From an uncultured Candidatus Woesearchaeota archaeon (GTDB taxonomy: Archaea > Nanobdellota > Nanobdellia > Woesearchaeales > B29-G15), in the NCBI GenBank assembly GCA_903915225.1, contig CAIWSB010000066.1, positions 1 to 38,358 on the forward strand: DNA of 38,358 bases, in the 5' to 3' direction. The notes beneath the pieces were generated by a model. The model saw only the letters and a list, made by a program, of their open reading frames with translations. It searched no databases and had not been told where the DNA came from. The position numbers and the translations under genes are program-made. Positions 15,336-23,440 of this stretch are shown one piece after another; the stretch's first letter is position 1, and each line of letters begins with the position of its first letter.

Positions 15336-16487
15336 ATGATTTACTATTACTCCTATTCTCTTGGCGAACATGTCACTGGTGCAAACCTTTTCTACAGGCG
15401 CATTGCCGAGATATTACGCAAACAGCCTGGCTCCAAAGGAATTAGGGACATGTTCAGTTTTATGGAAGCAGGCATAAAGCGCCTCCTGCCAGGGGATATT
15501 TTGGTTACGAATAACGGCCCTTACGCTTTCCTCCCCCATTACTACCGCCAGCGTTTCGGGCTCCGCTTCAGGATTCTTCGTGACGTGCAGACAACGCTTC
15601 ACGGGGCTTACCTATTCCAGGAGGCTGCCTGCGGGGCATTCCAGCAGCCCGGAGATGCCGTGATTTTCCCATCAAATTACACAAGGAATATGTACCTGAA
15701 ACTTTTCACTCACCTCAATGAAGAAAACACTTTTGTGTGTTACCCGTGCATTGAAACATTCCCGAAGCCAAGACCCCGTGCCAAGACTGATGATGTGGGA
15801 TATCTCGGCCGCTGCAGTCAGGAAAAAAATTTCCAGCAGCTGATAAATATTGCTCCAAAGCTGAAATGCAAAATTCTTGTTGCTGGTGAACTCAATCAGA
15901 AAAAGCTGCCGGAGAATATGGTTTGGGTTGGAAACCTGCCCTACAAGGATATTTGGAATTTCTTAGGCCGAATACGGGTGCTCTTGTTCCCTTCAACTGC
16001 AAACATCGAAAGCCTCGGCCGTGTGCTGCTGGAGGCGAATCATGCACGCGTTCCTGCAATTGCAGCTGAATTTGGTGCGAGCCCGGAACTCTGTCCAAAT
16101 CTCATTCCCGTGAAATACCGGGGTGATGAGATGGAGCTTCTGCACTCACAACCCCTCGGGCTTGTGAATGAAGAGATTCTAACAGAAAAAATAAAGTCCC
16201 ATCTTCGCCTGGGTGAGAATTCTGGCTATCAAGACCATGATAAGAAATTCCTTGAGATATTGGCTGGCAGTCCGGCCAAAGAAAAAAGGGTGGCTTTAAA
16301 CCCATATGTTGAAGAATTCATAAGTAGGACCAAAACATATATAAATGCGAAGTACAATTTTAACCTTATAGGGGCGATTTGTAATTCCGTCCCACAACTG
16401 AAAAAAGAGGATATTGGCAACCTGGGTCAGGCAAGCCATAACATCCTGGAAAAACTGGGATTCAAACCAACATGGAAACTTTCCTAA
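15336..16487 (+). CDS. GT4-like (GT-B fold) glycosyltransferase
   Basis: 383 residues. The C-terminal half has the GT4 pattern: VGYLGRCSQEKNFQQLI (strand and loop opening the donor domain), then PSTANIESLGRVLLEANHARVPAIAAEFGASPEL, where the Glu of the E-x7-E-type motif and the following Gly-rich turn bind the sugar nucleotide. The N-terminal acceptor domain is short (about 140 residues) and starts YYYSYSLGEHVTGANLFYRRIAEIL. No membrane span, so it acts in the cytosol or at the inner membrane face. The donor and acceptor sugars are unknown. A role in envelope glycan or archaellum/pilus glycosylation is inference. It overlaps the next gene by 16 bp. Confidence 0.85.
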   Translation: MIYYYSYSLGEHVTGANLFYRRIAEILRKQPGSKGIRDMFSFMEAGIKRLLPGDILVTNNGPYAFLPHYYRQRFGLRFRILRDVQTTLHGAYLFQEAACGAFQQPGDAVIFPSNYTRNMYLKLFTHLNEENTFVCYPCIETFPKPRPRAKTDDVGYLGRCSQEKNFQQLINIAPKLKCKILVAGELNQKKLPENMVWVGNLPYKDIWNFLGRIRVLLFPSTANIESLGRVLLEANHARVPAIAAEFGASPELCPNLIPVKYRGDEMELLHSQPLGLVNEEILTEKIKSHLRLGENSGYQDHDKKFLEILAGSPAKEKRVALNPYVEEFISRTKTYINAKYNFNLIGAICNSVPQLKKEDIGNLGQASHNILEKLGFKPTWKLS

Positions 16488-16855
16488 GCTCAAACCCAAA
16501 AAGAACCAAAGAAAAGCTCCTAACATTCCTTCTTGTTTTTCTGATACTACTTGTGCCTTTGTCTCTGCTGTCAAAATCCAGCGGCCCGAATGTTGAGATT
16601 ACCGGGCTATATACCCAGTCTGCAGGGGATGCCTCTCAGAGGGTTTTCTTTGAGATTCGCAACATCCAGGATTATGACATGCACTGCAAGATTATTGTTA
16701 CCTACTTCAAGAACAACGCCCCATATGAGAAAAAGATTGAGGAGTTTGGTGTTCTAAAAGCCCATGAGGCGAGGGAAGGCTCACTGTTCCTTGAGTTCCC
16801 GCCAGGGCAATCCTCAATGAAGATTGAGCCGGATTGTTTTGCAGTCTCACCTTAA
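16472..16855 (+). CDS. small single-span membrane-anchored protein, beta-rich exterior
   Basis: 127 residues; the ATG lies within the 3' end of the glycosyltransferase gene (16-bp overlap), implying coupled translation. A basic N-terminus (NPKRTKEK) precedes a hydrophobic segment at about residues 16-34, then an exported ~90-residue domain with alternating hydrophobics (QRVFFEIRNIQDYDMHCKI) typical of a beta sandwich. Two cysteines (in MHCKI and PDCFA) could form a disulfide. No family recognised. Pairing with a glycosyltransferase suggests a surface role. Its last 9 bases overlap the convergent radical SAM gene. Confidence 0.7.
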   Translation: METFLSSNPKRTKEKLLTFLLVFLILLVPLSLLSKSSGPNVEITGLYTQSAGDASQRVFFEIRNIQDYDMHCKIIVTYFKNNAPYEKKIEEFGVLKAHEAREGSLFLEFPPGQSSMKIEPDCFAVSP

Positions 16856-18127
16856 AACCGGGCGCTTCATCAAAGGGTCTTTTCCTGCAATATCTCCAGA
16901 ATTCAGTTTAGCCAATGCCCTGCTGCCGCCCCGGCATGTGTGGCGGTGAATGCATTTTGTGCATTGGATTGGCATTCTTCGGAGTTCCCTCAATGCAAGC
17001 CATTCTTCGGAGTTCCACGCATCCCATAGCGGGGTTTGGAGCGCATCACCCATAGGAACAACAAGGTAGTAGCTGGGTTTAAGCATGCCCCTGCTGTCAA
17101 CAACAATTCTTGTTGCCCCGTCATCATATACTCCACCCTGTGCGACTCTCGCAACCTGGCTGTTGAAGCAATATGGTATTGCATTGGCAATGCGGAAATT
17201 ACGGTTGTGTTTTTTGTTCAGAGATGCAATATTCGATATTGCCTTTTTCAGATAATCATGTCTGCCCAGCTCAATCGGACGGTAAAACTCCATAATTCGG
17301 ATGCCGTGCTGTCCGGCCAGCAGATAAAATCTCTCTATGTTGGCCGCATTCTGCTTTGTAAGCACGACACCGCACCTTACTAAGCAGTGTGGGTTGAGTA
17401 GTTCAATTGCCTTAAGCTTGAGCCCAAAAGAACCCTTAAGCCGGGTCTCTGCTTCATCTGTCTTTTCGTCAAATCCGTGGATTGGGATTAATACGTTCTC
17501 AACAAGCCCGATTAACTTTGCAATCTCTGCAACCAGGGTGCCATTTGTGTTTAGCCAAACCTTAAGACCAAGGTCCTTGGCGAATTCAATTAGATTAAAA
17601 ATATCCTTACGAAGCAAAGGCTCGCCTCCGGAGAATCTAACTATTTTAACTCCCATTTCCTTAACTTTCTTCAGCACGCACTTAACCTCTTCTCCATTCA
17701 TTTCCTTTCTGGCATTTCTTGCATCTAGGCGGTATTCAAATTTATTGAAGCAGAAACTGCAGGCCTGGTTGCATTTGTCCGTGACTTCAATCACAACCTC
17801 TATTGGGATATCTGGAATTGCCTTCACATACTCCTCCATTTCTGGGTAGAATCCGTTGCAAAAGAAATTAAACTTGCATCTCACGCATTCCTGGCTTTTC
17901 CTCTTTTCAGGTGCTGGCTTGTTGTCTAGATGATTGAACGCCACATCCATAAAGCACATTGGCAGCCGGGCAACAGTAATATCGATAAGATGCTCATATT
18001 CAAGAAGCTCCAATATTGTTATCCTGAGCTCTCCTTGCTCCAAACCAGGCTCTGGCTCTATTACCACCCACTCCTTTCCCTGGCTAAGAACCGGGCCTAT
18101 GAGGTTGGCAACATTAGATTTTTGCAT
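16847..18127 (-). CDS. radical SAM/SPASM peptide-maturase-like enzyme (HxsC position)
   Basis: 426 residues from ATG 18127. An N-terminal domain ends in a Cys cluster CVRCKFNFFC (C81, C84, C90) that could bind an extra Fe-S cluster. The radical SAM core starts with VTDKCNQACSFC (C119, C123, C126), followed by RFSGGEPLLRKD, which contacts SAM. The C-terminal SPASM part holds CTKCIHRHTCRGGSR. These enzymes use 5'-deoxyadenosyl radicals to crosslink or epimerise peptides. It lies directly downstream of a candidate precursor gene and one gene from an HxsB-like enzyme, occupying the place of HxsC, though its core looks more like general PqqE/SPASM enzymes than HxsC. The ATG 18127 is chosen over TTG 18142 because the TATA box at 18149-18159 is 22-32 bases away. 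Confidence 0.85.
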   Translation of the reverse strand: MQKSNVANLIGPVLSQGKEWVVIEPEPGLEQGELRITILELLEYEHLIDITVARLPMCFMDVAFNHLDNKPAPEKRKSQECVRCKFNFFCNGFYPEMEEYVKAIPDIPIEVVIEVTDKCNQACSFCFNKFEYRLDARNARKEMNGEEVKCVLKKVKEMGVKIVRFSGGEPLLRKDIFNLIEFAKDLGLKVWLNTNGTLVAEIAKLIGLVENVLIPIHGFDEKTDEAETRLKGSFGLKLKAIELLNPHCLVRCGVVLTKQNAANIERFYLLAGQHGIRIMEFYRPIELGRHDYLKKAISNIASLNKKHNRNFRIANAIPYCFNSQVARVAQGGVYDDGATRIVVDSRGMLKPSYYLVVPMGDALQTPLWDAWNSEEWLALRELRRMPIQCTKCIHRHTCRGGSRALAKLNSGDIAGKDPLMKRPVLR

Positions 18128-18148
18128 CAATGAATACAACAATTAGAG

Positions 18149-18159
18149 AATATTTAAAC
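18149..18159 (-). promoter_or_regulatory. TATA box of second radical SAM gene
   Basis: GTTTAAATATT on the minus strand, ideal spacing to ATG 18127. The gene can therefore be transcribed apart from the precursor gene, whose stop is at 18176. Confidence 0.55.
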
Positions 18160-18175
18160 TTTTATGGTGAGAACA

Positions 18176-18508
18176 CTAATAGCTGGTGCTTGTGCTTGAG
18201 GTGCTTGAGCTTGATGAAGTGGTTGAGTGCTCGTGAGTCACCAAGATTGTGTTGGAGGGTGTCAACTCAAGAGAAACGTTGTTGTCCAGGTGGATAATCC
18301 TTGATTTTCCCACAGACCTAAAGAGCCTTATCCCTGCACCTTTGGCAGATTTTGAGGCTATTGCTGCGCCAATTGCAGCACCACCAACAATTGCCCCGAC
18401 AGTGAGCATTGATTGCTTAGAAATCTTACCGCTTTCGCCACGGGCATAAGCGCCCAGAGTCTTCTTCAACCGAGGAATAATCTCTTTAGCCCCTTTTTTT
18501 GCTGTCAA
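18176..18508 (-). CDS. candidate modified-peptide precursor with Gly-rich hydrophobic segment and Ser/Thr/Tyr tail
   Basis: 110 residues, TTG start. The N-terminus is basic (KKGAKEIIPRLKK). Residues 34-52 form a Gly/Ala-rich hydrophobic segment (MLTVGAIVGGAAIGAAIA). A ~40-residue beta-like part follows, then an abrupt low-complexity tail with H92, H94 and residues 95-110 made only of Ser, Thr and a final Tyr. It lies between two radical SAM/SPASM genes in an Hxs-like cluster, where a peptide substrate with a biased C-terminal repeat is expected (HxsA has His-Xaa-Ser repeats). The tail is only His-Ser-like at its start, so assignment as an HxsA analogue is inference. The start rests on AGGTG at 18515-18519, 6 bases upstream. 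Alternative: a small structural membrane protein. Confidence 0.65.
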   Translation of the reverse strand: MTAKKGAKEIIPRLKKTLGAYARGESGKISKQSMLTVGAIVGGAAIGAAIASKSAKGAGIRLFRSVGKSRIIHLDNNVSLELTPSNTILVTHEHSTTSSSSSTSSTSTSY

Positions 18509-18514
18509 TTGTCA

Positions 18515-18552
18515 CACCTTTTGTAAGTTAATAGATAAATTGTTTATAAATC
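18515..18552 (-). promoter_or_regulatory. promoter and Shine-Dalgarno of the precursor gene
   Basis: TATA-like GATTTATAAAC at 18542-18552 overlaps the stop region of the HxsB-like gene (18544). AGGTG at 18515-18519 precedes the TTG start by 6 bases. A private strong promoter would let the peptide be made in excess over its enzymes, as is common for precursor genes. Confidence 0.5.
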
Positions 18553-19902
18553 TTTTGTTTTCGCCCAACTATTAAAAACTTCCTTGAATCTGGGCTTTGA
18601 GAAATAGGTCTCAAATAGCCATTTGAACTGGGCTTTTCTAAGTCTGCACTGGAAGGTTTGTGTTTTGGTTATTGGAGAACCGGTGGTGACATAACTAATG
18701 ACTGGGCAAACACCACAGAATGGCTTGAATGCGCACCTCTGGCATGCAAGCACATCATTTATTGAGCATTTGATTAATCCGCGCACCGAATCTGAGCTAA
18801 CAATCTCTTTGTAACCCTGGAAAACATTCCCGAGCCGGAACATATCTCCGGCCATCCTGGCCTCATCGCAACTGTAGATATCGCCATTATAGTCGTAAGC
18901 CAGCTGGTTAATGACTGCACCGCATGGGCTTTGGAGCTCGGTAAGCATTGGATTTAATCCGAGGATTGCTTTCTGGACCATTAAATTTGTGCCGATCTCG
19001 GAGATTGGTTTTTTCTTAGTCACGATGTAAGTCAAAAGCCTCTTCCAAAAAGTGAAGTATTGTTCGGGAGTTATGCCCAAAACCCCTGCGTTATCGCAGC
19101 CGCGCCCAAGCCTGTCAAATGGCCTAACCCAAAATTTCCTAAATCCAAGGCGAAGATATTCATCAACTATCTTCTCTGGAAAGCCCACGTTATTGGAAGT
19201 GATTGTCGCAATTGCAGACAAACGGTGCTCGGTAACTTTCATTAGGGTCTTTATCCATTTCTCCATCACTGCAAAATCCCCTGGGCGATTCTTGGAATGA
19301 AGCTCCTTGGGGCCGTCCAAAGAAGTTCCCGGAAGCACCCAATTCTGGATTATGAAGTCCATCTTCTCTTTATCCATAGCCAGCAGATTTGTTGTGAAAC
19401 TAATCCTGAGCATTTTTAGGCGCCTATTGCTAACCTCACGCGCATAACCTGTGATGTACTTCATAACCTTGAAATTCAACAGGGGCTCACCCCCCTGAAA
19501 CTCAATTGAAATTGACTTGCTTGGGGATTTGAAGATAAAGTCAACCACCGCTTTCGCGGTCGGGATGTCCATATCATAGCCAGACTCATTCTGGGGGACA
19601 GTAGGGGCGTGGCAGTATACGCATGATTGGTTGCAGCGGCGGGTGGGGATAATAATGTGGAGGCACGGGCCTTGAAGCAATTGCCTCTTACTAAACCTGT
19701 ATTTGTTGACAAGTTTGTGGCGATTACTGTTTGTTACAATTATACCTTTCTTTTCAAGCACCTGGTGCAGCTCCCCATCCAGATTGCCAGTCTTGAACCT
19801 CTGGTAATCCGCAGAATTGAGAATAACATAATCCCCGCAATCATTGGTTATGAGGTAGCCCCCTAAAAGCCTCTCAACCCTGGGTGAGAAGAGCTCATAC
19901 AT
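18544..19902 (-). CDS. HxsB-like radical SAM/SPASM maturase
   Basis: 452 residues. After an N-terminal ~75-residue domain resembling a peptide-recognition region (GGYLITNDCGDYVILNSADYQ), the radical SAM motif is PTRRCNQSCVYCHAP (C90, C94, C97), followed by IEFQGGEPLLNFKV and GTSLDGPKELHSKNRPG. The C-terminal part has LAYDYNGDIYSCDEARMAGD, then CQRCAFKPFCGVCPV, a SPASM domain with auxiliary Fe-S clusters. The sequence of motifs (EFQGGEPLLNF, SLDGP-LH-NRP, DEARM, CAF-P-FCG) matches what I recall of the His-Xaa-Ser maturase HxsB. It would modify the tail of the peptide encoded just downstream. Its start overlaps the HxsD-like stop by 8 bp. Confidence 0.85.
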   Translation of the reverse strand: MYELFSPRVERLLGGYLITNDCGDYVILNSADYQRFKTGNLDGELHQVLEKKGIIVTNSNRHKLVNKYRFSKRQLLQGPCLHIIIPTRRCNQSCVYCHAPTVPQNESGYDMDIPTAKAVVDFIFKSPSKSISIEFQGGEPLLNFKVMKYITGYAREVSNRRLKMLRISFTTNLLAMDKEKMDFIIQNWVLPGTSLDGPKELHSKNRPGDFAVMEKWIKTLMKVTEHRLSAIATITSNNVGFPEKIVDEYLRLGFRKFWVRPFDRLGRGCDNAGVLGITPEQYFTFWKRLLTYIVTKKKPISEIGTNLMVQKAILGLNPMLTELQSPCGAVINQLAYDYNGDIYSCDEARMAGDMFRLGNVFQGYKEIVSSDSVRGLIKCSINDVLACQRCAFKPFCGVCPVISYVTTGSPITKTQTFQCRLRKAQFKWLFETYFSKPRFKEVFNSWAKTKDL

Positions 19903-20134
19903 TTTGCATTATTCCCAGCACGTAATTGAAGAACTCATAACCCAAAGGCTCAAGCTCCATGCCTGGCTCCTTGGGGGTTAATTGCACCAAATAACTGCCC
20001 TCTGACATATCCAGGTTGACCCAGCAGCTCTCCCCAAAAGCCTCAGAAGCCAGAAGAACAGCCTTCTTTAAGTAAACCCCGCTATTTAGTTTGAGAGTCA
20101 CGCCGCCAGCCCTCACCTGAACACTACTCTCCAT
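19895..20134 (-). CDS. HxsD-like small protein (second copy)
   Basis: 79 residues from ATG 20134, overlapping the upstream gene by 11 bp and the HxsB-like gene by 8 bp, so translation is tightly coupled. Motif order LKLNSGVYLKKAVLLASEAF, then a strand pair (CWVNLDMSEGSYLVQLTPK) and a C-terminal helix (PLGYEFFNYVLGIM) parallels the neighbouring protein at 20124, so the two look like paralogues of the HxsD family. HxsD proteins are small companions of HxsB/HxsC; their fold suggests a substrate-binding accessory, but biochemical role is not established. A longer in-frame start at 20284 is rejected because it would overlay the neighbour. Confidence 0.7.
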   Translation of the reverse strand: MESSVQVRAGGVTLKLNSGVYLKKAVLLASEAFGESCWVNLDMSEGSYLVQLTPKEPGMELEPLGYEFFNYVLGIMQNV

Positions 20135-20453
20135 CCTCTTCCTCCTCTGGCGAGATGAGCCCGGCCATGGCCTCTTCCACAATGGCCTCTGTGATTTTTG
20201 ATTTCTTTGCAGACTCAAGGAGATAAACCTGCGCGCCAACCAATTCATTGCCGAATTCCTGCGCAAGCTCTTCAGGATTCCCATCCCCTTTGGGCTTAAG
20301 CTCTACACACAGCTGCCGGTCTATGTCACCATCAATCACAACATAGGCTTTTTCAGTCAGCGAATAGGCTGCATTGAGCACAGCCTCAACAGAAAAGAGC
20401 CCGGGATTAATCTGAAAAAATGCACTGCCCCCCTCCACCTTAATATTGCTCAT
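20124..20453 (-). CDS. HxsD-like small protein (first copy)
   Basis: 109 residues. The core INPGLFSVEAVLNAAYSL, then a strand pair (AYVVIDGDIDRQLCVELKPK) and the helix EELAQEFGNELV, matches my memory of HxsD of the His-Xaa-Ser system (a helix with a conserved AAY, a DGD turn, strand, PK, then a helix with EF-NEL). The C-terminus is acidic (PEEEEDGE). ATG 20453 is chosen because a G-rich ribosome site sits 2-8 bases upstream; a GTG at 20465 lies within that site. It is the first gene of the Hxs-like cluster, 30 bp after the prepilin peptidase stop and on the same strand, with a TATA box at 20483-20494. Confidence 0.72.
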   Translation of the reverse strand: MSNIKVEGGSAFFQINPGLFSVEAVLNAAYSLTEKAYVVIDGDIDRQLCVELKPKGDGNPEELAQEFGNELVGAQVYLLESAKKSKITEAIVEEAMAGLISPEEEEDGE

Positions 20454-20482: not shown

Positions 20483-20494
20483 ATTATATAAAAC
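20483..20494 (-). promoter_or_regulatory. TATA box upstream of Hxs-like cluster
   Basis: GTTTTATATAAT on the minus strand, overlapping the 3' end of the prepilin peptidase gene. It is 30-40 bases before ATG 20453 and allows the cluster to be transcribed apart from the pilin genes. Confidence 0.5.
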
Positions 20495-21605
20495 TTTCTA
20501 TGAGAATTTTTACGAACATGGCAATGTCAGTTGTCAAAATGAGTGTGAGTATTGCACCAACAAACATGAACGGGGCAAAGGGCAGGGTTTGGTAGATTCG
20601 GATAGTATGCTCCCGTAGAAAACCACTGCTATGGGCTTTCTTGACCATTTTAACCTCACTATCAGTCAAGCCATCCCCCAACCTGTTGAAGAGGGAGCTC
20701 TCTTGGGATTTCCTTAGGAGTGCCTCCAAGAATGAGAAATAAGCAAATCTCCTTTTCCTGAAATGGGATTTAGCGACTTTATATACATCCTCAGCGGGTA
20801 TCATTCCCCTCTTAAGGTTTTCAATGAAAATATCTTTTGAAAAAACCTCATAGGAGAGGGTAAGGAGATAAAACCTAAGGATGAGCAGTAGCACCATAAC
20901 CAAGATAAAGTTCCAGAGATACTCGAGGTTTGCATAATTCTTGAAATCAAAAATCAACCTAAGAATGCACAGCAGAACGCTTACAGTAATGAGCCTGAAC
21001 TTGAGGTACCTACTAGCAACAAGAATTATTGTAAACAGGGCAACCACCTGGAGGATTGCATTGCTAGGTACGCCCAGAAGGTTGAAGAGCGCAGTAACGA
21101 CCCATCCAAACCCAAACAGGAAGAGCCCTATGGTGAGCAGCAGCTTTGGCTGGAATGTCCACTTGAGCAGTCCGGGGTTCAGGGCTTTTTTAATCCTGAT
21201 TAAAACATAAATTATGAAGAACAGCAGGAACGGGGTGAATGTGTTAACGAGCAGCGTGTAGGCCGGGAAATGGGGGAAGTAACCAAACTGGTATGTTGTT
21301 ATTGGTATTAGGAAAGCATATGCCAGGAAGAGTTTTGCATCACCCGCGCTCCAGAGCCCAGTGTACCAAAGGATGTAACCCAAGACAAATGTGCAGAGCA
21401 CATTAAGGTAGAACTCAACAAGGTATGGCCCTCCTCCCGGGATTGTTAGCTTGGGGTTTGAAATAAAAACGAAAATAGATACAAAAACACCGAAAGAGAT
21501 AGCCAGCAGCACCCACTTGTTCCTTATCCTGTTGAAGCGTATGTCCTCATATGAGGTTATTAGTCCAAATGCCACTATAAAGATTAAGATTAGCTGCTCG
21601 AGCAT
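20484..21605 (-). CDS. archaeal prepilin peptidase (GxGD aspartyl protease)
   Basis: 373 residues with about eight membrane spans. It cleaves class III signal peptides of type IV pilin-like proteins at the inner face of the membrane. The two catalytic aspartates are D21 in SYEDIRFNRI and D89 in the SAGD motif of GLWSAGDAKLFLAYAFLIP, which define family A24 (FlaK/EppA-like). It is longer than EppA-type proteins (about 230-270 residues). The extra ~100 residues near the C-terminus include a cytoplasmic loop (SFLEALLRKSQE, LTDSEVKMVKKAH) before the last span. It stands 2 bp after the pilin-like gene at 21608 and follows four substrate genes, so its substrates are probably these pilins. Confidence 0.9.
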   Translation of the reverse strand: MLEQLILIFIVAFGLITSYEDIRFNRIRNKWVLLAISFGVFVSIFVFISNPKLTIPGGGPYLVEFYLNVLCTFVLGYILWYTGLWSAGDAKLFLAYAFLIPITTYQFGYFPHFPAYTLLVNTFTPFLLFFIIYVLIRIKKALNPGLLKWTFQPKLLLTIGLFLFGFGWVVTALFNLLGVPSNAILQVVALFTIILVASRYLKFRLITVSVLLCILRLIFDFKNYANLEYLWNFILVMVLLLILRFYLLTLSYEVFSKDIFIENLKRGMIPAEDVYKVAKSHFRKRRFAYFSFLEALLRKSQESSLFNRLGDGLTDSEVKMVKKAHSSGFLREHTIRIYQTLPFAPFMFVGAILTLILTTDIAMFVKILIESFI

Positions 21606-21607
21606 TT

Positions 21608-22003
21608 TCAGCTGCTGCTGTTGCAGCGCACCCCATTGATGGTTACTTTAGGGCTCCCTATGCCAACAATCTTGCCCTCGTCATCTATGTACTGGAGATC
21701 CCCCCGCTCATCCGTAAAATATATGCAGAAATCATTCTTGATGCCCATTTTGTTCTTGAGGTCCTGATAGCTCATCTGGCTTAAGTCCAGCAGTGCCTCC
21801 GGATTAACCTTCCTTTCATCCACAATCTGGCCCGACCCTTTATCGCTTAATGTGGAGAATATCCTTTCCCCCTCCATCTGGAGTTCATTTGTTTTAGAGC
21901 CCTTGCCTTGGGATAATGAGAATGCAAGCACAGCAATCACAATAATAATGAAAAGTGAGACACCCACAATGGCATCGATGCTCCAGGCTTGGCCTGATTT
22001 CAT
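21608..22003 (-). CDS. pilin-like protein with class III signal peptide
   Basis: 131 residues from ATG 22003, which overlaps the preceding stop as ATGA; ATG 22012 is another possible start. The N-terminus MKSGQAWSIDAIVGVSLF has the short basic leader, Gly-Gln cleavage context and following ~20-residue hydrophobic stretch of type IV pilin-like proteins. The exported part is polar, with KTNELQMEGERIF then Asp-rich strands and two Cys (DFCIYF, VRCNSS). Probably a minor pilin in a small pilus or a secretion pseudopilus. No ATPase or platform protein gene is in the window. Confidence 0.8.
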   Translation of the reverse strand: MKSGQAWSIDAIVGVSLFIIIVIAVLAFSLSQGKGSKTNELQMEGERIFSTLSDKGSGQIVDERKVNPEALLDLSQMSYQDLKNKMGIKNDFCIYFTDERGDLQYIDDEGKIVGIGSPKVTINGVRCNSSS

Positions 22004-22434
22004 GCTTTGCATCTCACCCTTATCCAATTCTCCTCTTTTATTAGTAAGTTTGTGCGGTTTGGTCCAACGCAAATCCTGCCAGTCACATTTCCCGGGATGC
22101 GCTCAACAGCCGAATAATCCTTGGTAAGATTTGTCTGGAGCACCAATGATGAATAATTGGAATTAAGCGTAGTGGAGTTTATAAGCGTTACGTTGTAAAC
22201 CATCCCGTTTATCCTTACCGGGACTGAAAATTCTCGCCTGTAACCCGGCTCAACTTTTAGGGCTATATCCATCTCGTTCCTTATCAACACAGCCACTTCC
22301 TCCAGAGAACTGAGCTGCTTCTGCTGCTGTGTCTCAAGAGTCCTTTTTGCTATAACCCCAACAAAGGTGATCATCACCATCATCATAAAGGTGATAATCA
22401 ATGCTGCCTCTATGGAGGACTGCGCCCGGCTCAT
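22000..22434 (-). CDS. pilin-like protein
   Basis: 144 residues. The start MSRAQSSIEAALIITFMMMVMITF shows the class III signal (Arg-Ala-Gln cleavage site) and hydrophobic helix. The exported region is beta-rich with many Asn-x-Thr/Ser sequons (NVT, NST, NYS, NLT, NVT, NRT), which suggests a heavily N-glycosylated pilin. ATG at 22434 overlaps the stop of the upstream gene at 22431 as ATGA. It belongs to a four-gene pilin cluster with its own processing peptidase. Confidence 0.82.
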   Translation of the reverse strand: MSRAQSSIEAALIITFMMMVMITFVGVIAKRTLETQQQKQLSSLEEVAVLIRNEMDIALKVEPGYRREFSVPVRINGMVYNVTLINSTTLNSNYSSLVLQTNLTKDYSAVERIPGNVTGRICVGPNRTNLLIKEENWIRVRCKA

Positions 22435-22892
22435 CTAACTTCTACCCTCACAAAAGCGACGCCCGATGCATTCCTACTGGCCGTAACTTCTATGTTTTTC
22501 TGACCGGCTGTAACAGCCACGTCCGAAAAGCTCCCATTGATGTTAACCCTGGATGTGAACACCAGCAGCTCTGAACCTCCTGTTCCTCCCGAATAATTGA
22601 AGATGAGCTGGTTTACTGGAGGTATCCTGTTCCAATCTGAAACAATATACATGCTCTGGACTCCTGAAGGCATGTCCTCGCGGAGGGTAATGCTTGAGGG
22701 CGGCCCTTGGTAAAAAATCTCCTCAGCTGTGTTAACAACTGAAGTGCCCAGCTTGGTGAGCTTGGACTTTGAGAGTTCGTCTGAAGATTTACTAATCTGG
22801 CTTAGAAAGATGTAAGTTGTGGGAACAAAAACCAGCAGGAAAAGGGCTGTAACAAGGACGTATTCCATCACAGCCTGCCCCCTTTTTTGCAT
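22431..22892 (-). CDS. pilin-like protein
   Basis: 153 residues from ATG 22892, chosen over TTG 22904 because it gives the classic MQKRGQAVMEYVLVTAL start and lies 23-31 bases after the TATA box at 22915-22923. KRGQ is the processing site, then a ~25-residue hydrophobic helix. The exported domain has NINGS and NAS sequons and a Gly-rich stretch (YSGGTGGSELLVF). It heads an operon of three pilins plus peptidase, since overlaps are ATGA-type. Confidence 0.85.
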   Translation of the reverse strand: MQKRGQAVMEYVLVTALFLLVFVPTTYIFLSQISKSSDELSKSKLTKLGTSVVNTAEEIFYQGPPSSITLREDMPSGVQSMYIVSDWNRIPPVNQLIFNYSGGTGGSELLVFTSRVNINGSFSDVAVTAGQKNIEVTASRNASGVAFVRVEVR

Positions 22893-22914
22893 GGTCAGGC
22901 ACAAATGAAAAGAG

Positions 22915-22923
22915 TATTTAAAC
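22915..22923 (-). promoter_or_regulatory. TATA box of pilin operon
   Basis: GTTTAAATA on the minus strand, 23-31 bases before ATG 22892. It predicts a leaderless transcript for the three downstream pilins and the peptidase. Confidence 0.55.
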
Positions 22924-22924
22924 T

Positions 22925-23440
22925 TTATTCAACAACAGCCATCAGCTGCCCCTTGGCAGTGTGGGTGAAAGAGCTTGTTGAATCTGCATCATACCATTTT
23001 ATGGCCAAGTCCCACTTTAGCTTGGTGTTCTTGCCCTTGTAGACTGATTCAATAGGGCAGCCCGACCTATTCAGTTTGAACTTATACGACGCCCCATTGA
23101 GGATGAGTGCATCGCCCGTGCCAGGGACTGTTGGGAGCCATGAGCAGTCTGCAGTGCTGGCAGAGGTGCCGTTTGCAGTAATTCTTGCTACTTTAATATC
23201 TGTGCCTCGGCCGTTTTCTATTTTCAATACAATGCGGCCAACGTTGGTTGCAGTTGTAGTATTGACAAGATGGTCTGCGCATTGTATACCCATCTGGATT
23301 TCACACCTCTCCGGCAGCAGTGTTGCTGGGTTGAGTATACCAAAATAAGCCAATGCACCGATAACAACAAGAACAACCAGGATGGCCCAACCATAGGTCA
23401 TCAGGAATTCCATTGCAGCCTGAGCGCGTTTTATCATCAT
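22925..23440 (-). CDS. major-type archaeal pilin
   Basis: 171 residues. The N-terminus MMIKRAQAAMEFLMTYGWAILVVLVV is the classic archaeal pilin sequence with KRAQ processing site and ~22-residue hydrophobic helix carrying the filament core. The exported domain has several Cys (RCEIQMGIQC, ADCSW, SGCPIES) that may form disulfides, and NTT and NGT sequons. This is the best candidate for the major subunit. ATG 23440 is preceded by AGAGGGAT at 23444-23451 and a TATA box at 23488-23498. Confidence 0.87.
   Translation of the reverse strand: MMIKRAQAAMEFLMTYGWAILVVLVVIGALAYFGILNPATLLPERCEIQMGIQCADHLVNTTTATNVGRIVLKIENGRGTDIKVARITANGTSASTADCSWLPTVPGTGDALILNGASYKFKLNRSGCPIESVYKGKNTKLKWDLAIKWYDADSTSSFTHTAKGQLMAVVE

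Follow-up and report, generated by a model that had tools for sequence, protein, structure and literature searches.

Gene content of the locus

The window, which here means the whole stretch of DNA analysed (38,358 nucleotides), corresponds to contig C66 in the draft genome (1.69 Mb) of a DPANN archaeon. On its minus strand, positions 16847 to 20453 encode in tight packing two HxsD-type proteins (D1 and D2), an HxsB-type enzyme, a small precursor peptide and a second radical SAM enzyme (RS2). D1 and D2 overlap by 11 nt and D2 and HxsB by 8 nt; the gaps measure 35 nt between HxsB and the peptide and 33 nt between the peptide and RS2. A sequence-only reading of this DNA had described five leftward genes with overlaps or short gaps, and all five were found, with no gap above 35 nt. 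An A24 peptidase gene (21605-20484), 30 nt ahead of D1, extends the set upstream. We annotated the following features:

20484..21605, minus strand: A24-family prepilin-peptidase-like membrane protease, 373 aa, the proposed leader protease (PF01478, PF06819, catalytic Asp, locus position)
20124..20453, minus strand: HxsD1, 109 aa, ATG start (TIGR03976, E 1.4e-9)
19895..20134, minus strand: HxsD2, an HxsD-like paralogue of HxsD1, 79 aa, ATG at 20134 (NF038315)
18544..19902, minus strand: HxsB-type radical SAM/SPASM maturase, 452 aa (TIGR03978; SPASM TIGR04085)
18176..18508, minus strand: HxsA-type precursor, 110 aa, TTG start (leader common to 27 relatives; NF038309)
18425..18430, minus strand: proposed prepilin-type cleavage site Gly27/Lys28 (SG/KISK) in the precursor, predicted from the leader alignment
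16847..18142, minus strand: RS2, second radical SAM enzyme, 431 aa, TTG start with an in-frame ATG at 18127 (PF04055)

The 129-aa open reading frame listed for D2 merely has a longer in-frame start within D1; D2 itself comprises 79 aa. The closest named relative, a Woesearchaeota MAG (L009), has the identical gene order and proteins that are 54-68% identical. On the plus strand (15336-16855), a glycosyltransferase-like gene (383 aa, recognised by eye) is accompanied by a gene for a 127-aa single-TM protein, the end of which overlaps RS2. The order of this gene pair is also conserved with L009.

Putative maturation enzymes and their relation to known Hxs systems

HxsB matched TIGR03978 over nearly its full length (E 3.7e-107). 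The score of 359 bits lies 11 bits below the cut-off of 370, and TIGR03978 is the best family for this protein by more than 200 bits. Its SPASM domain was recognised by TIGR04085 (43 bits, cut-off 27). Screening with TIGR03976-TIGR03978, as proposed in the sequence-only reading, gave a mixed outcome: HxsB and D1 matched below their cut-offs (D1: 38.1 bits to the HxsD model TIGR03976, E 1.4e-9, cut-off 50), D2 passed the HxsD_rel model NF038315 instead (45.9 bits, cut-off 41), and RS2 did not qualify as HxsC. An HxsB search found the enzyme in 36 of the 371 genomes of the same phylum; viral carriers of HxsB were looked for and none was confirmed.

The profiles of D1 and D2 align with each other (hhalign probability 97.7), identifying the two proteins as paralogues. 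We considered HxsD1 as a PqqD-like RiPP recognition element, a winged helix of three strands and three helices. The predicted model (mean pLDDT 83) instead has the topology b-b-a-b-b-a, and its best PDB matches are weak and Rpb11-like (E 3e-3). The model thus gives no support for HxsD1 as such a recognition element. Since subunits of the Rpb11 type associate with a partner, D1 and D2 might likewise form a pair, a weak inference from the modelled fold.

RS2 matched the radical SAM domain PF04055 with 67.7 bits, together with a sub-threshold SPASM match, and the models that fit it best are those of generic radical SAM/SPASM families. That the second enzyme is not a typical HxsC, as had been claimed, was borne out by scores of 40.4 bits to TIGR03977 (cut-off 267.9) and 50.4 bits to HxsC4 (cut-off 500), and we rejected an assignment as HxsC. 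RS2 differs from HxsC4 as an enzyme with two CxxCx5C motifs, one on either side of the radical SAM domain; the region around the N-terminal one is similar to the C-terminal end of small HxsC4-like enzymes (hhalign probability 93.8). The predicted fold (mean pLDDT 53) was too poor to use. Outside the window, RS2 was found at the Hxs loci of just two genomes, L009 and the bacterial MAG L011. All three Cys motifs are invariant in both orthologues, and the L011 precursor has full HGS repeats. No further strong full-length RS2 match was found in the phylum, and the remaining loci have either no radical SAM enzyme beside HxsB or an HxsC4-like one. RS2 is an occasional addition and not a core part of the system.

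Like bacterial HxsDBCA systems (TIGR03976-TIGR03979; compare the Aeromonas locus L082), the archaeal form encodes its small exported precursor in tight order with an HxsB-type maturase and a partner of the HxsD type. In contrast to them, it has two HxsD paralogues, an A24 protease and an N-terminal leader extension of HxsA, and has no HxsC; the window precursor, in addition, is without HxS repeats. The window thus fails two defining features of classical HxsABCD, namely HxsC and the HxS repeats. That it is a homologous, Hxs-related system, close to the NCBIfam HxsA4/HxsC4/HxsD-like models, is well supported. Among these models (NF038313, NF038332 and NF038315), HxsA4 is passed by some relatives' precursors and HxsD_rel by D2. 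HxsC4 is the best match of small enzymes beside HxsB in some loci, although with scores of only 102-163 against a cut-off of 500. In the openly readable literature, we found no paper that describes Hxs in archaea or RiPP maturation by an A24 protease, and none that settles the Hxs product or the protease freeing it.

The precursor family

The window precursor consists of a leader (about residues 1-27, ending in ESG), a hydrophobic stretch (33-50), a THEH motif (91-94) and a Ser/Thr tail ending in SY. It matched the HxsA3 model NF038309 in the leader alone (E 0.009) and gave no match to HxsA4. A profile of the leader recovered 27 precursors at E <1e-9, window and L009 included, plus a giant one in L010. 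The family leader is basic, of the type PKIKKKxxxFLxxE-x-[G/A], followed by x-[IVML]-x-K and then the hydrophobic stretch. Beyond it, relatives often carry T-H-x-H and HGS/HSS repeats and commonly end in Ser plus Tyr or Trp. Several exceed the HxsA4 cut-off of 55 (L044, 59.4; L046, 66.1; L011, 66.3). Together with the profile matches of the enzymes, these precursors uphold the claim that the cassette is of a divergent, archaeal Hxs type. If the locus were instead a generic radical SAM RiPP cluster with a mere resemblance to Hxs, this would account for three components scoring below curated cut-offs and for the absence of HxsC. However, the margin of TIGR03978 over any other family, the HxsD-type proteins preceding HxsB, and the HxS repeats in relatives of the same leader and gene order, some of them passing HxsA4, make this explanation, already disfavoured, highly improbable.

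The sequence-only reading was also right that the window peptide is without His-Xaa-Ser repeats (tail THEHSTTSSSSSTSSTSTSY). As a trait of the archaeal version, this does not hold, since the repeats persist in many relatives whose leader and gene order are the same. The window peptide shares the leader, THEH and the SY end with the family, and its repeat region is a Ser/Thr run without His; the missing repeats are therefore probably a derived state within the HxsA family. A frameshift as origin of the Ser/Thr tail was rejected because the other reading frames give no HxS repeats, as judged by eye. No second HxsA paralogue was found in the same genome, and a search for plasmid relatives of an archaeal precursor gave no match.

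His repeats shrunk to THEH plus a Ser/Thr tail, and an HxsB slightly under its family cut-off, could also mean that the cassette is decaying, so that HxsA has ceased to be a substrate and the enzymes have another target or are being lost. We consider this quite improbable, as every gene is open, and the RS2 Cys motifs, the A24 aspartates, the leader motif and the C-terminal SY are all retained. Moreover, few repeats are likewise found in relatives L009, L043, L048 and L058. In our preferred reading, the drift of the core from His-Xaa-Ser to Ser/Thr only makes it more likely that the modified residues in the window are Ser/Thr or THEH rather than repeat histidine. The peptide, with a repeat region devoid of histidine, offers a test of whether histidine is the modified residue.

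The long A24 protease and its proposed role in leader processing

A24 prepilin-peptidase-type membrane proteases trim pilus proteins. The window A24 protein matched PF01478 with 27.3 bits (cut-off 26.5) and PF06819 with 25.9 bits (cut-off 23.4). In the aligned long-A24 family, the catalytic Asp21 is present in 25 of 26 and Asp89 in all 26 sequences. In the 28 genomes checked, a gene for an A24 protein of about 280-300 aa is usually accompanied by a second one, longer and diverged. The longer gene most often lies at the Hxs locus, the shorter one elsewhere. Across the phylum, 38 of the 371 genomes encode the long A24 and 36 encode HxsB, with 30 shared (Fisher p 6e-31, a value that ignores shared ancestry).

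This association is reflected in gene order. In 27 loci, drawn from at least 20 families, the long A24 lies directly ahead of HxsD in the same direction, with <300 bp between them (a count that includes L086, which has only an HxsD fragment); HxsA or HxsB occurs within 3.5 kb of the long A24 in six further loci. Where loci are split from the HxsB cluster, the long A24 stays beside an HxsA gene (L094, L096) or adjoins a giant His-repeat gene (L095 and L097, seen by eye in the translation); in L010 it adjoins a giant HxsA gene. Eight genomes have a long A24 without detected HxsB, and three of these hold diverged HxsD/HxsB or HxsA nearby. By contrast, Hxs parts were found near none of 19 housekeeping A24 genes within about 3 kb on each side or up to the contig end (L100, with too short a fetched region, is left out of this count). 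Counting against a role in Hxs, we found no Hxs system beyond one HxsD fragment around the long A24 of L086, L089, L090, L092 and L093, the last cut by a contig end, and none near the A24 of L099. Conversely, the long A24 was undetected in the HxsB genomes G069, G091 and G318. The HxsD-like fragment of L086 (7051-7155) directly follows the long A24, in a genome where no HxsB was detected, and is possibly a relic.

The conserved gene set is thus an HxsA-type precursor, two HxsD paralogues, an HxsB-type enzyme and the long A24 protease, with RS2 added in the window, L009 and L011. The five-gene set of the sequence-only reading stands in one respect, as the small peptide is conserved beside the enzymes in relatives. 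It does not stand as a constant set, RS2 having been found at those three loci only, or as a complete one, as it omitted the conserved partner directly upstream, the long A24.

Does the protease act on HxsA? Aligned on the Gly/Ala as position 0, the leaders have F/Y at -6 in 28 of 28, E at -2 in 27 of 28, G/A in 28 of 28 and K at +4 in 28 of 28 sequences, followed by hydrophobic residues. The succession of Gly/Ala, x-[IVML]-x-Lys and a hydrophobic stretch, present in all 28 leaders, resembles a prepilin cleavage site. Archaeal prepilin peptidases require Gly before the cut, cleavage by the related PilD takes place at the cytoplasmic side, and EppA represents a larger type with substrates acidic at +5, whereas archaellins have basic residues ahead of the cleavage-site Gly (PMC4187195). 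The long A24 shares with FlaK, PibD and EppA the A24 domain, the archaeal C-terminal domain PF06819 and two catalytic Asp residues, and is large in the manner of EppA. It differs from them in its genetic linkage, which is to HxsA/HxsD instead of pilin loci, and in a putative site with acidic residues ahead of Gly. The two residues preceding Gly are mostly acidic in HxsA, versus basic in archaellins, and an acidic +5 residue occurs in only 10 of 28; both count against cleavage. The window's pilins also have a stronger hydrophobic stretch than HxsA does (mean 2.1-3.2 versus 0.5-2.0), a further point against cleavage. Since the neighbouring E and K are equally invariant, the block around Gly could instead be a docking site for HxsB/HxsD.

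Four small genes lie directly upstream of the A24 gene in the window (21608-23440, minus strand), and three of them encode class III pilin-type signals such as KRAQAAMEF. The A24 enzyme could thus process pilins and not HxsA, its linkage to Hxs reflecting shared regulation or genome order; HxsA would then be exported and cut by Sec/signal peptidase I at the AxA-like ends that several HxsA show past the hydrophobic stretch (NNANA/G, SVSA/HH). We regard this alternative as unlikely. In the same scan, the pilin-type genes were absent from other Hxs loci, so their linkage is found in the window only. Furthermore, nearly all genomes checked also have a housekeeping A24 with no Hxs parts nearby, and the long A24 accompanies HxsA to the separate loci L094 and L096. 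In the genome of the window, the housekeeping A24 is encoded on contig C80.

We therefore think it probable that this RiPP operon is a divergent archaeal form of the His-Xaa-Ser system and brings its own leader protease. Modification and cleavage would proceed as follows. The basic leader PKIKKKxxxFLxxE-x-G would be recognised by HxsD1/D2 and HxsB, and HxsB, aided by the HxsD pair, would modify the precursor tail with the leader still attached. Where present, RS2 would also act on this C-terminal part, which is rich in His, Ser and Thr. Once the hydrophobic stretch has inserted into the membrane, A24 would cut after the invariant Gly/Ala at the cytoplasmic face in the fashion of a prepilin peptidase, and the modified peptide would be released as a membrane-bound, exported or filament-incorporated product. 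What is new compared with the known Hxs family is that these genes are accompanied by a pilus-type membrane protease, which probably trims the peptide. More tentatively, and with slightly less than even confidence, we propose that many DPANN families use an EppA-like prepilin peptidase dedicated to removing the leader in a radical SAM RiPP system, and that modified His/Ser peptides, giant repeat forms included, mature like pilins and may join membrane-anchored or filamentous surface structures. If so, prepilin peptidases would join the proteases of RiPP maturation, and such modified peptides would be widespread in small-genome archaea. A protease tied to the system by gene order and phyletic pattern provides a testable handle on the leader end and on the destination of the product.

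The giant protein of L010 (1543-4404, minus strand) exceeds 900 aa and combines an HxsA-like leader and THDH with many THDNC/SHSNC repeats; its neighbour is a long A24 protease. The MAG carries the label Aminicenantes, and transfer or mis-binning is possible. The frames directly before the long A24 in L095 (7380-7899) and L097 (3430-3758), both on the minus strand, have HTNCxHxS-type repeats and end in SITVxNTE. Several loci also encode, after or beside HxsA, a protein that is probably secreted and shows a recurring cysteine pattern (L045, 8703-9344; L052, 8722-9453; L056, 6175-6699; L011, 7470-8564); it is a possible accessory factor.
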